DNA of 64,000 nucleotides. Origin: Acidobacteriota bacterium. GTDB lineage: Bacteria > Acidobacteriota > Terriglobia > Bryobacterales > Bryobacteraceae. The position numbers and the translations under genes are program-made. The notes under the pieces were generated by a model. It had not been told where the DNA came from. It searched no databases and saw only the letters and a list, made by a program, of their open reading frames with translations. The DNA lies in the NCBI GenBank assembly GCA_016185425.1, contig JACPNQ010000026.1, forward strand, positions 124,001-188,000, given 5' to 3'. This document shows positions 3,472 to 7,627 of this stretch, piece after piece. The stretch's first letter is position 1. The number at the start of each line of letters is the position of its first letter.

Positions 3472-3849
3472 CTATTCGCCTAGGTAGGCCTGGTAATCGG
3501 CGGCCGACATCAACCCGTCTAGCTCCGCCGGATTCGCCAGCCTAATCTTCACCAGCCACGCCTCGCCATGCGGGTCGGCGTTCAGCTTCTCCGGCGCGCC
3601 TGTCAGGATTGTATTCGATGCAATGACCTCGCCGGTAACCGGAGAATAGATATCGGACACTGCCTTTACCGACTCCACCGAGCCCAGCGCCTTCCCCTGT
3701 TCCACCGCCGCGCCTTCCTTAGGCAAATCGACATACACAATGTCGCCCAGCTCATGCTGGGCGTGGTCCGTTATGCCAATCGTTCCCGTGTCCCCTTCAA
3801 CCAGGATCCACTCGTGTTCTTTGGTGTACTTGTAGTTTTCCGGATACAT
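3472..3849 (-). CDS. gcvH: Glycine cleavage system H protein
   Basis: A 125-residue lipoyl carrier protein of the glycine cleavage complex, which shuttles the aminomethyl group between the P, T and L proteins. The N-terminus 'YKYTKEHEWI' and the lipoylation motif 'GSVESVKAVSDIYSP' with Lys62 are diagnostic, and the length is normal for the family. Its ATG overlaps the gcvT stop by one base (TAATG), so translation is probably coupled. The P protein and lipoamide dehydrogenase genes are not in the window. Confidence 0.97.
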   Translation of the reverse strand: MYPENYKYTKEHEWILVEGDTGTIGITDHAQHELGDIVYVDLPKEGAAVEQGKALGSVESVKAVSDIYSPVTGEVIASNTILTGAPEKLNADPHGEAWLVKIRLANPAELDGLMSAADYQAYLGE

Positions 3850-4964
3850 TATTTCGCTCGCTTGTAGAAGGGTGTCCCGATCACTTCGGCATCCGCCGCC
3901 TGATTGCGAATCATAACTTGGATCGGCTGCCCGATGTTAGACTTCTCTACCGGCAGATAGCACATGCCGACATTCATGTTCACCGTGGGTCCCGGTCCGC
4001 CGGACGTCACCCACCCGGCCTCCGCGCCGTCCACTTGAATCGGATATCCGTCGCGGCCGATCCCCCGTCCCGTCATCTTGAATCCGCACAGCTTCCGCTT
4101 CAGGCCCGCCGCCTTGATCTCTTCCAGTTTCCGCTTGCCGAGGAAGTCGCTCTTGCCGAGCTTCACAATCCAGCTCAAGCCCGCTTCCAGGGGATTCAGC
4201 TCATCGGTAATCTCATGTCCGTAAAGCGCCATTGCCGCTTCCAGCCGCAGTGTGTTTCGCGCGCCCAAGCCTGCGGGTTTAATGCCGAACTCTTCTCCAG
4301 CCGACAATAGTTCGCCCCAAAGCCGCGGCGCTTCGCTGTTGGCGATGTAGATCTCGAAGCCGTCCTCGCCCGTATATCCCGTCCGCGCGATCGTCGCCGG
4401 CGCGCCGGCGACTTCGCCAGTGGCGAACCAGTAATACTTGATCGGCGCCAATTCCGTCTTCGTTAACTTCTGCAGTGTCTCCACAGCCCGGGGGCCCTGC
4501 ACGGCGATCTGCGACAGCGTTGGGCCGATATTCTCAACGCGGGCATCGAACTTCTTCAACGTGTTCTGCTCTTGAATGTGAGCGAAGTCTTTGTCCTGGT
4601 TCGATGCATTGACGCACAGGAAGTAGTGATCGCCGGCGAACTTGTGGACCAGAATGTCATCCACGAATCCGCCGCCTTCCAGAATCAGCCCGCTATAGTG
4701 CGCCTGTCCCACTTGCAGTTTGCCGGCATCGTTGCACGACACCCAGTTCACCAGCTCCAGCGCCTGCGGACCCGTCACCTGGATTTCGCCCATGTGCGAT
4801 ACATCGAACAGCCCCACGCGAGTGCGCACCGTCGCGTGCTCGTCCAGAATCCCGCTGTACTGCACCGGCATGTCCCACCCGCCGAAATCCACCATCTTTG
4901 CGCCCGACGCGCGATGTACCGCGTTTAGCGGCGTTTTCAGAAGGACTCCGGAGGCGCTTTCCAT
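3849..4964 (-). CDS. gcvT: Glycine cleavage system aminomethyltransferase (T protein)
   Basis: A 371-residue tetrahydrofolate-dependent aminomethyltransferase. It releases ammonia from the H-protein-bound aminomethyl group and makes 5,10-methylene-THF. The folate-binding GcvT fold is evident from 'VDFGGWDMPVQYSG', 'GLFDVSHMGE', 'GFVDDILVHKF', 'NASN' and the C-terminal barrel 'WVTSGGPGPTVNMNVGMCYLP'. The length is typical. It is first in the gcvT-gcvH unit and is divergent from the UGA-containing gene at 5031. A GAGG sits just before the ATG. The 66-base divergent spacer is too short for, and shows no sign of, a glycine riboswitch. Confidence 0.97.
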   Translation of the reverse strand: MESASGVLLKTPLNAVHRASGAKMVDFGGWDMPVQYSGILDEHATVRTRVGLFDVSHMGEIQVTGPQALELVNWVSCNDAGKLQVGQAHYSGLILEGGGFVDDILVHKFAGDHYFLCVNASNQDKDFAHIQEQNTLKKFDARVENIGPTLSQIAVQGPRAVETLQKLTKTELAPIKYYWFATGEVAGAPATIARTGYTGEDGFEIYIANSEAPRLWGELLSAGEEFGIKPAGLGARNTLRLEAAMALYGHEITDELNPLEAGLSWIVKLGKSDFLGKRKLEEIKAAGLKRKLCGFKMTGRGIGRDGYPIQVDGAEAGWVTSGGPGPTVNMNVGMCYLPVEKSNIGQPIQVMIRNQAADAEVIGTPFYKRAK

Positions 4965-5030: not shown

Positions 5031-5372
5031 ATGAAATCGATTGACTGGTCCTATCACCGTCAAGGTTGAACCACCTGCGGACGCACGCAGGAGTTTCTTG
5101 CGAAGAATAAGGTGAACGTCGTCACTCGCGTTGATGCCAGGAAGCGCGCCATCGGCCGTGAGGAGGCTATCCGGATCGCTCGCGGCGCTCGTGAAATCGT
5201 CTCCGCCAAAGGCAAGTTGGTGAAACGCCTGCTCACGAAGGATGCGGACGACGATGCCATCGCCGCCCTGATCATCGGCCCCAGCGGCAACCTCCGCGCG
5301 CCCGCGTTTCTCACCGGCAAACGGCTCGTTGTCGGCTTTGAAGAGGGCGCGTACCGCGAGCTGCTCACTTAG
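5031..5372 (+). CDS. ArsC/Spx-like thioredoxin-fold selenoprotein (in-frame UGA = Sec13)
   Basis: Reading from the ATG at 5031, codon 13 is TGA (5067-5069) and the same frame then stays open to TAG at 5370. If the TGA is decoded as selenocysteine, the product is 113 residues starting 'MKSIDWSYHRQG-U-TTCGRT', giving a redox motif U13-T-T-C16 exactly where ArsC/Spx/YffB-type proteins carry CxxC. The remainder ('EFLAKNKVNVVTRVDARK', 'GPSGNLRAPAFLTGKRLVVGF') has the ArsC-like order of helix, beta strand and Arg-Ala-Pro loop. A 7-bp hairpin with a GUU loop starts 17 bases after the TGA. Starting at GTG 5112 instead would remove the active site. The gene is divergent from gcvT and overlaps the convergent neighbour by 8 bases. 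An ArsC-family (seleno)protein is the best call, substrate unknown. No Sec-insertion genes are in the window, so decoding is inferred. Confidence 0.82.
5086..5102 (+). promoter_or_regulatory. SECIS-like hairpin downstream of the UGA codon
   Basis: Bases 5086-5092 (CGCAGGA) pair with 5096-5102 (TCTTGCG) in seven pairs, one of them G-U, closing a three-base loop GTT at 5093-5095. The loop begins 23 bases after the TGA and has G then U at its top. This agrees with the general bacterial SECIS model, in which the apical loop lies roughly 16-37 bases downstream and has a G in its first positions. An alternative 6-bp stem (5074-5079 with 5086-5091) would compete with it. Function is inferred. Confidence 0.6.
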
Positions 5373-5997
5373 GCGGCGGAACCGTCTCTCCCTTGCGCCG
5401 CAGCGTTGGAGCCTTCCGTTTGCCCTGCTCCTCGGCCTCTTTCTTTTCGCTGACTTTCTTCTCCGCCTGCTCCTTTGTCGAGAGCAACGCATCGCGCTCT
5501 TTCTTCTCTCTCGCGTCGCGGTCGATCACACCCTGCCCGCGCGCCGCCAAGTCTTCCTGCGCCAGATCCACCGAGTCCTTCGTGGCCTCTATCGCCGTCT
5601 CCAGCGCCAGTTCGTACCGCGCCATGTCCTTCGGCTGAGCCTCGCGCACCTTTTGCAGCCGCGCCAGCAAGCCCTTCTCCGTCTCGGCCACCGCCTTTAC
5701 GCCCGCCAGCACGTCCACCTTCCGTTTCAGCGCGTCGTCCGTCACAGTATCGGCGGCCTCAACGATCTTCGTGTACTGCTCCAGCAGATCGTGGATCAGT
5801 ATGCTGCGGCCTGCCTTCTCCCGTTTCAATAAGCTTTCCACCTGGTCCACGCGCTGCTTGGCGAAATGCATGTAGAGCTGCAGCCGTTCATTCCGCTCTT
5901 GCACCAGCCGCACCTGGTCCACTTCATCGGCGGTCAGGAAGTCGCGGTCCTGCGCCGCCGCCGTCATCGCTATTACAAACAGTAGAACCCTCATCAC
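5365..5997 (-). CDS. Secreted charged helical protein of unknown function
   Basis: A 210-residue product with a short signal peptide (residues 1-15, 'VIAMTAAAQD') followed by almost entirely helical, heptad-like sequence rich in Glu, Lys and Arg. It ends in a strongly charged tail (residues 160-210, 'EKKERDALL', 'KKVSEKKEAEEQGKRK'). No enzyme motif is visible. Its start overlaps the end of the preceding gene by 4 bases, so it is the last gene of a translationally coupled set behind uvrA. It is probably a periplasmic coiled-coil protein acting with its two upstream neighbours; I do not recognise a family. Confidence 0.75.
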   Translation of the reverse strand: MMRVLLFVIAMTAAAQDRDFLTADEVDQVRLVQERNERLQLYMHFAKQRVDQVESLLKREKAGRSILIHDLLEQYTKIVEAADTVTDDALKRKVDVLAGVKAVAETEKGLLARLQKVREAQPKDMARYELALETAIEATKDSVDLAQEDLAARGQGVIDRDAREKKERDALLSTKEQAEKKVSEKKEAEEQGKRKAPTLRRKGETVPPPK

Positions 5998-6419
5998 GAC
6001 CCCCGCAGCGTGGCTTCCACCAGCTCGTCAATCCTCTTGCCCACATGCTCCGTCACCCCATCCAGCACCGGCCTGTCGTCGAGACTCAAATCCCGCCGGA
6101 ACGTCTCCAGCCTCCGATTCAACTCCCGCAGCCGGAGCTCCGCGCGCTTGAAGTATTTCGGGCTCTTGCGGGCATTCTTGCCTGTTGCCTTCAGCGAATC
6201 GACCGACAGGTCCACCGCGGCCTGGAACTCGGTGAGCTGTTCCTTGATCTTCTCCAGGCCGTTCCGGTCCAGTTCCGTGCGCATCGCGGTGACGATCTCG
6301 CCCGCCGCGATGAGCGCCTTCTCCGAGCGCCGCTCCAGGTTCGGCTCCGCCTTCGCGGCAGCCAGGTCGGAGCCGTGCGCCATCATCGAAAACAACACCA
6401 CTGCAATCAGTCGCGTCAT
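5994..6419 (-). CDS. Small secreted helical protein of unknown function
   Basis: A 141-residue protein with an N-terminal signal peptide (residues 1-16) and a helical body with regularly spaced hydrophobic residues ('EKIKEQLTEFQAAVDLSVDSL', then 'AELRLRELNRRLETFRRDL'). There is no recognisable catalytic or metal-binding motif. It overlaps the upstream TPR gene by 4 bases (ATGA) and the downstream gene by 4 bases, so the three are probably translated as a set. Its function may depend on the TPR neighbour, which is inference from context only. Confidence 0.75.
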   Translation of the reverse strand: MTRLIAVVLFSMMAHGSDLAAAKAEPNLERRSEKALIAAGEIVTAMRTELDRNGLEKIKEQLTEFQAAVDLSVDSLKATGKNARKSPKYFKRAELRLRELNRRLETFRRDLSLDDRPVLDGVTEHVGKRIDELVEATLRGS

Positions 6420-7627
6420 TTCTTTTCCAACACTTTCTTCACCACTCGGATTCGCTGCCGGGCCTTGAACTCTTCCTCCGGGCTCTTACCATCGCTCACC
6501 GCCAGGAATTTTTCATACGCCGGCAGCGCTTCCTTGTAGAGCTGCATCCGGTCGTAGCATAGCGCTCGGAGATACCATTGTGCCGGTGTCTCCTCACCCA
6601 GCGCGCGCAGCTTGTCGAACGCTCCCAGTGTGCCCTGGTAGTTGCCGAGCAGAAACAGCGTCGACGCCAGCTCGCGCCATGCGGCCGTTGCCTTCGCGTC
6701 TGCCTGGGCCGCATTGTAGAACTCCTGCGCCGCCGCCGGCAGGTTTTTTGCCTCGCGCAGCAAACGCCCCAGGGTTAGCCGCAGTTCAACGTTTCGCGGC
6801 TCCTGCTGCACCGCCGCGGCGATCAGTGGAAGGGCCTTGTCGTTCTGCTTCGCCTTCAGGTACGCCGTCGCCAATGCGAAACGGTTCGCCGCCGTCGGCG
6901 ACGTCTTCACCGCGCCCTCCAACTCCGCCACCGCGTCCGCCGCCTGTCCGCTCTCCAGCAGCAGCACGCCCATCCGCTCTCGTGCGCCGGCATTGTCTGG
7001 AAATTGCTTATAGATCGCGATCGCTCCTTCACGGTTCTTGGACTGCTCATAGTGCGAAGCCAGTTCCAGCAGCGCATCCCGATAGGAGGCCTCCGTCTGC
7101 GCCGCGCCCTCAAACCATGTCGCGCTCTCCTTCACGCGGCCTTGCCGCGCCAGCGCGCGGCCCATCGCAACCATCGCTTCCGGGCGTTTCGCATCGGCCT
7201 GCAAAGCCGCGCGCAGCGGAGCTTCTGCCTCCTCCGGCTTGCTCAATCCAAGCAGCGCCTCGCCCATGTAATAGTTTGGACGATACTCCGCCGGCTTCTG
7301 TTTCCGCGCCTCATCGAGAAGCGCAGCCGCTTCGGCAAACTGTTTCTGCCGCAGGTGTAGAACGCCGAGATTCAACTGTGCTTCATAGAGCCCCGGTTTC
7401 GCCGCCAGGACTTTTTTATAAGCAGCAATCGCCTCCCCATCGCGGTTCAACAGACTCAGCGACAGCCCCAAATGAAACTGCGCCGAGAGGTCGTCTTTGT
7501 CTTTCTCGACAGCCTGCGCAAACAGCTTCGCCGCCTCGTCGTACCTCTGCCCTTCCAATGCCTTCATCCCCTCGGCCGCGGGGTCGGCCGCCTGGAGCCA
7601 AAACGCCAGTAACAATAGGGGGAGCAT
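6416..7627 (-). CDS. Secreted tetratricopeptide-repeat protein
   Basis: A 403-residue protein with a signal peptide (residues 1-14, 'LLLLAFWLQAADPAAEG') followed by about ten TPR units running to the C-terminus, for example 'GMKALEGQRYDEAAKLFAQAVEKD' and 'YEAQLNLGVLHLRQKQFAEAAALL'. TPR arrays are scaffolds for protein contacts, so an envelope assembly or lipoprotein-like role is possible. The gene starts 11 bases after uvrA ends and overlaps the next gene by ATGA, so it is likely cotranscribed with uvrA although the functions look unrelated. Confidence 0.85.
   Translation of the reverse strand: MLPLLLLAFWLQAADPAAEGMKALEGQRYDEAAKLFAQAVEKDKDDLSAQFHLGLSLSLLNRDGEAIAAYKKVLAAKPGLYEAQLNLGVLHLRQKQFAEAAALLDEARKQKPAEYRPNYYMGEALLGLSKPEEAEAPLRAALQADAKRPEAMVAMGRALARQGRVKESATWFEGAAQTEASYRDALLELASHYEQSKNREGAIAIYKQFPDNAGARERMGVLLLESGQAADAVAELEGAVKTSPTAANRFALATAYLKAKQNDKALPLIAAAVQQEPRNVELRLTLGRLLREAKNLPAAAQEFYNAAQADAKATAAWRELASTLFLLGNYQGTLGAFDKLRALGEETPAQWYLRALCYDRMQLYKEALPAYEKFLAVSDGKSPEEEFKARQRIRVVKKVLEKK

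Follow-up and report, generated by a model that had tools for sequence, protein, structure and literature searches.

A UGA-containing ArsC-like gene of the NF041106 family in an Acidobacteriota genome, very probably read with selenocysteine at its reactive site

A short ArsC-like reading frame in the genome of an Acidobacteriota bacterium is interrupted by a TGA, which raises the question of whether this codon is a stray stop or a site of selenocysteine (Sec) insertion, and what the protein would then do. The frame lies in the window, a stretch of 64,000 nucleotides of contig JACPNQ010000026.1. It runs on the forward strand from ATG (5031–5033) to TAG (5370–5372), and reading it through confirmed what had been noticed from the letters alone, namely that it is open except for one in-frame stop, the TGA of codon 13 (5067–5069, forward strand). 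With the TGA read as Sec, the gene (5031–5372) encodes a protein of 113 aa that begins MKSIDWSYHRQGUTTCGRTQEFLA, with Sec13 in a U-T-T-C motif whose last residue, Cys16 (TGC, 5076–5078, forward strand), is the proposed resolving residue. The TGA thus falls on the UxxC redox position of an ArsC/Spx-type protein, as the sequence-only reading had it. That reading had also predicted that ordinary gene finding would start at GTG 5112 and lose the active site; in this frame, our mechanical ORF lister returned only GTG 5112–5372 on the forward strand (86 aa, starting at codon 28), a truncated ORF without the U-T-T-C motif, which is the likely call of ordinary gene finding and not the real gene start. 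A plain ORF lister therefore loses the active site of this selenoprotein family.

The explanation that we consider highly probable as a whole combines Sec decoding through SelB, tRNA-Sec, and a hairpin with a redox protein that uses Sec13 and Cys16. The UGA at codon 13 would be decoded by SelB and tRNA-Sec under the direction of a hairpin starting 16 nt downstream, and the product would be a one-domain ArsC/Spx-type protein with a thioredoxin fold. In this protein, the Sec13 selenolate would attack an oxidized substrate, Cys16 would resolve the intermediate as a selenenylsulfide, and a cellular thiol reductant would then reduce the selenenylsulfide. The part of this explanation that concerns decoding (the UGA, the SECIS hairpin, and the machinery) draws on comparative sequence evidence.

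The gene had been taken for a new selenoprotein, which was not borne out at the level of the family. The protein scored 118.9 bits (cut-off 85) against the NCBIfam model NF041106, "ArsC family (seleno)protein" (ArsC_rel_Se_1), with a match spanning profile positions 1–107 of 107. No difference from NF041106 was found: the full-length profile match, the UxxC motif (U13-T-T-C16), and the coexistence of Sec and Cys forms (the best 80 public homologues comprise 74 UxxC and 6 CxxC proteins) are all the same. The protein is one more member of a known family, a confirmation and not a discovery. Table 1 of a 2026 review places "Arsenate reductase-like protein NF041106 UxxC" among the families predicted with high confidence and cites for it, as reference 61, the 2008 Global Ocean Sampling (GOS) paper (PMC13188914), where the entry "Arsenate reductase 2, cd03032, UxxC" comprises 42 sequences (PMC2398784). 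Both have an ArsC/Spx-type domain with UxxC, and because the GOS sequences are known here by their description, their oneness with NF041106 rests on the citation in the review. A 2006 survey lists ArsC-like selenoproteins and, for Acidobacteria, four selenoproteins of three families (PMC1794560). The passages of the deep-Sep paper on an Acidobacteriota genome with three selenoprotein genes, all of known kinds, make no mention of ArsC (PMC12013277). In the open-access literature, NF041106 was found by name only in the 2026 review, and no functional study of the family was found among the listed titles and beginnings of abstracts.

We compared the family profile with solved structures, where Spx proteins came first (3l78, 6ghb, 1z3e, 3gfk, and 7f75; about 40 bits, E = 3e-9), followed by 3ihq (also Spx), 2m46, yffB 1rw1, and 2kok. 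The residues invariant in a 40-row alignment include W6, R10, the Sec/Cys position 13, C16, and G83, P84, G86, N87, L88, R89, A90, and P91. The last eight belong to GPSGNLRAP (residues 83–91; 5277–5303, forward strand), the family's longest conserved stretch, where we propose that the cis-Pro loop of a thioredoxin fold may lie.

A thioredoxin-fold selenenylsulfide oxidoreductase of the ArsC/Spx type with a UxxC motif is the most likely function, its redox chemistry being predicted from the motif and the family. A true, glutaredoxin-dependent arsenate reductase (ArsC) with Sec as the catalytic residue appears unlikely, even if the Pfam ArsC model (PF03960) is passed, just over its cut-off (25.8 bits versus 24), and the names used in the review and the GOS entry, "arsenate reductase-like" (PMC13188914) and "Arsenate reductase 2" (PMC2398784), point that way. 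The arsenate reductase model TIGR00014 (cut-off 106.05 bits) had no match to the protein up to E = 1. The Sec arsenate reductases described in the 2005 Sargasso Sea paper (PMC1088965), assigned to TIGR00014 in the tabulation of the review (PMC13188914), belong to the same ArsC superfamily and also carry Sec first in the motif, but their motif is UxxS, whereas that of the window protein is UxxC. Nor did a general clustering of ORFs reveal a conserved set of neighbors within up to 5 kb.

Divergent from the selenoprotein gene on the reverse strand are gcvT (3849–4964; 438.7 bits, cut-off 300) and gcvH (3472–3849; 169.5 bits, cut-off 117). Three reverse-strand genes converge on it: those for proteins of 210 aa (5365–5997) and 141 aa (5994–6419), both without an NCBIfam match, and that for a TPR-type protein of 403 aa (6416–7627) for which no model exceeded its cut-off. 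The ORF clustering, which covered up to 5 kb around 80 homologues and the first 12 kb of the window, yielded no conserved partner; its largest neighbor cluster held 12 loci, and a cluster of 21 turned out, by place and sequence, to be the 3′ part of the selenoprotein gene itself called as an ORF. The ORF caller is crude in G+C-rich DNA, and the genes of the window fell into none of the clusters shown. A tblastn search of 99 loci (19 from family genomes with 1.5 kb flanks, our own included, and 80 public loci), in which short flanks may hide further cases, placed the divergent gcvT-gcvH pair beside the gene of the window and of two near relatives only. The three downstream genes recurred at 12, 9, and 9 of the 99 loci, our own included, all of them loci of close homologues, with the same species apparently sampled twice in some cases; the block from 5365 to 7627 reflects local synteny of close kin. 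With these two methods, no neighbor conserved beyond near kin was found, and none names a substrate or points to the function.

Likewise unlikely is an Spx/MgsR-like regulator, an RNA polymerase-binding redox switch in which a selenenylsulfide replaces the CxxC disulfide. The Spx proteins are the best structure matches by sequence profile, and their CxxC occupies the same place as the UxxC of the window protein, with Sec where Spx has Cys; however, the protein reached only 32.4 bits with the Spx/MgsR model TIGR01617, far under its cut-off of 75.05. A selenium-dependent Spx-like redox switch or another signaling role, taken more broadly, seems unlikely to us; if it held, an Spx-type protein would use its selenenylsulfide to sense the cellular redox state or the selenium supply itself.

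The claim that this acidobacterium decodes Sec was upheld by a search of its assembly, in which SelA (462.1 bits, cut-off 267.9), SelB (360.6 bits, cut-off 242.25), SelD (370.4 bits, cut-off 125), and tRNA-Sec (70.1 bits, gathering threshold 47) all exceeded their curated cut-offs. Among 14 control genomes, the cut-offs were passed by SelA in 1, SelB in 2, SelD in 2, and the tRNA-Sec model in 5. The tRNA model lacks full specificity, as a tRNA-Ser of the window's genome scores 48.8 bits, but ARAGORN called the best tRNA a tRNA-SeC with anticodon tca (UCA), which settles its identity. SelA was over its cut-off in 124 of 150 family genomes, so its presence alone discriminates little. The ArsC-like gene is not the sole use of this machinery, since the same genome encodes a formate dehydrogenase alpha (FdhA) with one internal TGA in U-H-G-P (L161:1501–4497, at G000:C2:143189–146185; TIGR01553, 1350.7 bits), and a hairpin with a GUU loop is predicted after its UGA. 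UHxP is the motif that the review tabulates for formate dehydrogenase alpha (PMC13188914).

We then followed the TGA through the relatives of the gene. In a survey of 150 family genomes, the window's own included, 27 matched the protein. All 20 close homologues (E ≤ 6e-14; our own among them, and one truncated at a contig end) carried TGA at the same codon. In the seven distant homologues (E from 1e-5 to 1e-3), the homologous codon was TGA six times and TGT once, the latter in genome G089; neither a SelA match nor a tRNA-Sec above the cut-off was seen in G089, which fits the expectation for a Cys form. Two of the 20 genomes with close homologues, the fragmented drafts G131 and G143, lacked a SelA over the cut-off, and both had a tRNA-Sec match of at least 70 bits. 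At the level of the phylum, 61 of 396 genomes matched the family profile; a single TGA, counted whatever its place in the gene, was present in all 37 matches above 60 bits and, by the same count, in 7 of the 24 weaker ones, with none in the other 17. These weaker matches will include other ArsC/Spx families.

A scan of a public genome collection confirmed relatives for 564 of at least 587 pattern matches, and the best 80 were kept. Of these best 80 of at least 564, 74 had TGA at the Sec position and 6 had TGC, although near kin are favored when relatives are ranked by similarity to a query from an acidobacterium. Two search patterns were used, one of which spans the Sec position with Cys; if back-translated to Cys codons only, this pattern finds no Sec forms, so the scan should not favor TGA. 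A check for homologues with Cys or TGA at position 13 had been suggested, and every homologue read carries Sec or Cys there. Neither outcome named beforehand as a refutation was observed, since selB and tRNA-Sec are in the genome and the homologues read keep a redox residue at this position. The record names of the public relatives include Acidobacteria, Planctomycetota, Melainabacteria/Cyanobacteria, Verrucomicrobiales, Wallbacteria, Methylomirabilota, Gemmatimonadetes, Actinobacteria, Proteobacteria, Minicystis rosea (a complete genome), and others, with the reservation that most records are metagenome-assembled genomes (MAGs) whose taxon names may be wrong. Among the relatives found, the family is thus carried mostly as the Sec form, in many records named Acidobacteria and Planctomycetota. 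The nearest named homologues of the window protein are from Acidobacteria MAGs, and the protein of a genome of the same genus (G004) is identical to one from a Candidatus Sulfopaludibacter MAG. One MAG record with the gene is labeled Klebsiella pneumoniae (L083); in the tree it groups with a "Proteobacteria" MAG, near Minicystis rosea, and its label is probably wrong.

The six Cys forms (L076, L088, L091, L098, L121, and L133) are scattered among the Sec forms in a 99-row tree. The fewest Sec/Cys changes on this tree, built from few columns and giving no direction of change, is six, of which at least two are forced by well-supported branches. Because shuffled labels required about the same number (5.9), the tree is only suggestive of repeated Sec/Cys exchange in the family.

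The hairpin proposed to direct decoding, a bacterial SECIS element, lies at 5086–5102 on the forward strand. It has a 7 bp stem (CGCAGGA/UCUUGCG) and a GUU apical loop, and it begins 16 nt after the UGA. The bacterial SECIS model given in the review calls for a loop of 3–9 nt with a G within its first two positions, a stem of 4–16 bp, a UGA-to-loop distance of 16–37 nt, and a minimum free energy of at most −7.5 kcal/mol (PMC13188914). The window hairpin agrees with it in its loop of 3 nt with G first, its 7 bp stem, and its distance of 23 nt from the UGA to the loop. Its energy was −7.1 kcal/mol for the bare 17 nt and −8.2 kcal/mol for 23 nt with 3 nt of flank on each side (z = −2.17, with 3 of 200 shuffles as good), so the energy limit is reached only with the flanks. 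Taken alone, the window hairpin is only moderately stable.

Among the best 80 public homologues, all seven pairs were possible in 59 of the 74 TGA genes (six pairs in 10, four or five in 5) and in none of the six Cys genes, one of which kept six pairs. We tested covariation on 67 rows, the window and 66 of the 74 public TGA genes, against 500 shuffles that ignore relatedness. Hairpin cells were paired in 94.9% of cases, compared with 90.0% in the shuffles and, after a shift of the partner by 1–3 columns, 29 to 68%; 19 cells had changed on both sides of the stem, compared with 2.9 in the shuffles. None of the 500 shuffles, with relatedness again ignored, reached the observed pairing share, the number of both-side changes, or the covariation score, while the three covarying pairs and eight further pair types were reached by 9 and 10 of the 500, respectively. 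Sliding the structure by −2 columns also gave 13 cells changed on both sides. Columns 21 and 35 pair as GC, CG, UA, AU, or UG. Columns 26 and 30 pair as AU in 51 rows and GC in 8 and are unpaired in 8. The eight GC cases read GGG TTC where most genes read GAG TTT (8 of 74 TGA genes), which combines a Glu/Gly difference with a silent difference in the Phe codon and keeps the closing pair as G-C; in another 8 of the 74, GAG is combined with TTC and the closing pair is broken. This alternation, with the base pair kept, offers a clean example of RNA structure constraining the coding region of an active site.

Synonymous sites within the hairpin were frozen as well. Among the 19 near homologues, ACG was used in 18 of 18 (expected share 0.27), GAG in 19 of 19 (0.51), TTT in 18 of 19 (0.21), CTT in 19 of 19 (0.15), and GCG in 18 of 19 (0.39), the expected share being that of the codon in the same genes outside the hairpin stretch. 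At the positions listed outside the hairpin with more than one codon, the commonest codon had a share of 0.37 to 0.84 in these 19 genes. The one Gln codon that varies inside the hairpin (CAG in 13, CAA in 6) exchanges a G-U for an A-U pair. Separately, the Gly codon directly before the TGA (5064–5066) was GGT in 16 of the 19 near homologues (expected 0.29), the highest share at those listed positions outside the hairpin, and this preference may reflect an influence of codon context on how the UGA is decoded.

When the 45 nt following the UGA were folded as single sequences, the SECIS hairpin was predicted in 14 of 20 close homologues, 50 of 74 public TGA genes, and none of the six Cys genes. 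An alternative hairpin closer to the UGA (CCUGCG/CGCAGG, 5074–5091) was preferred in 6 of 20 close homologues, 11 of 74 public TGA genes, and 2 of 6 Cys genes, and 13 of the 74 had neither. We did not adopt this nearer hairpin, which was preferred by fewer folds than the later one in both the close and the public TGA genes and whose loop begins 10 nt after the UGA, outside the 16–37 nt interval stated in the review (PMC13188914). A SECIS model (R1) was also run against the window's own genome, with 150 of 4615 candidates scored. The selenoprotein gene scored 54.3 bits and the next best candidate 17.8 bits; the window sequence is part of the model and owes its score to this construction, which leaves only the gap as informative. 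The formate dehydrogenase hairpin was absent from the model's matches among the 150 candidates scored.

The selenocysteine reading of a working selenoprotein gene is strongly supported by these sequence comparisons, which indicate that the UGA at codon 13 is very probably used to insert selenium at the reactive site. A pseudogene or sequencing error, with a stray nonsense codon at position 13 and translation, if any, from the GTG at 5112 that the ORF lister offers, would account for the single in-frame stop, but its probability is close to negligible. The sequence-only reading had judged a stray mutation unlikely, and we reject this explanation in view of a TGA kept at the same codon in the close homologues and in most of the best 80 public ones, under record names from several phyla, of the frozen synonymous sites downstream of it, and of the covarying hairpin.

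A second ArsC/Spx-like family was observed in the relatives (loci L029, L030, L032–L035, and L135–L146, for example L135:1501–1842 and L139:1501–1830); the window's own genome gave no match to it. At E ≤ 1e-29, 47 of 150 genomes matched it, with one TGA in 39 and none in 8. All 10 distinct TGA genes that were read have the codon within K-P-[TP]-U-T-[TS]-C-R-K, and two other genes read have Cys there. None of five distinct genes scanned reached an NCBIfam selenoprotein model; two of the five narrowly passed TIGR01617 (80.2 and 81.8 bits versus 75.05), and three passed no model listed. The Sec machinery offered no simple fit in several genomes with this family. Two of them have no SelA match, G112 (Cys form; tRNA-Sec match of 71.8 bits) and G148 (TGA form; 58.5 bits). 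G139, counted with a TGA, has SelA, but its tRNA-Sec match reaches just 47.4 bits and could be a tRNA-Ser, and G002, G030, and G074, without a stop in the gene, score 70 to 79 bits for tRNA-Sec. The second family may represent Spx/MgsR-like proteins in a Sec form for which no dedicated model exists, or it may correspond to the "Arsenate reductase 2" group of the GOS paper. Most of its TGA genes that were read have a predicted hairpin downstream of the TGA that resembles the one in the window gene.
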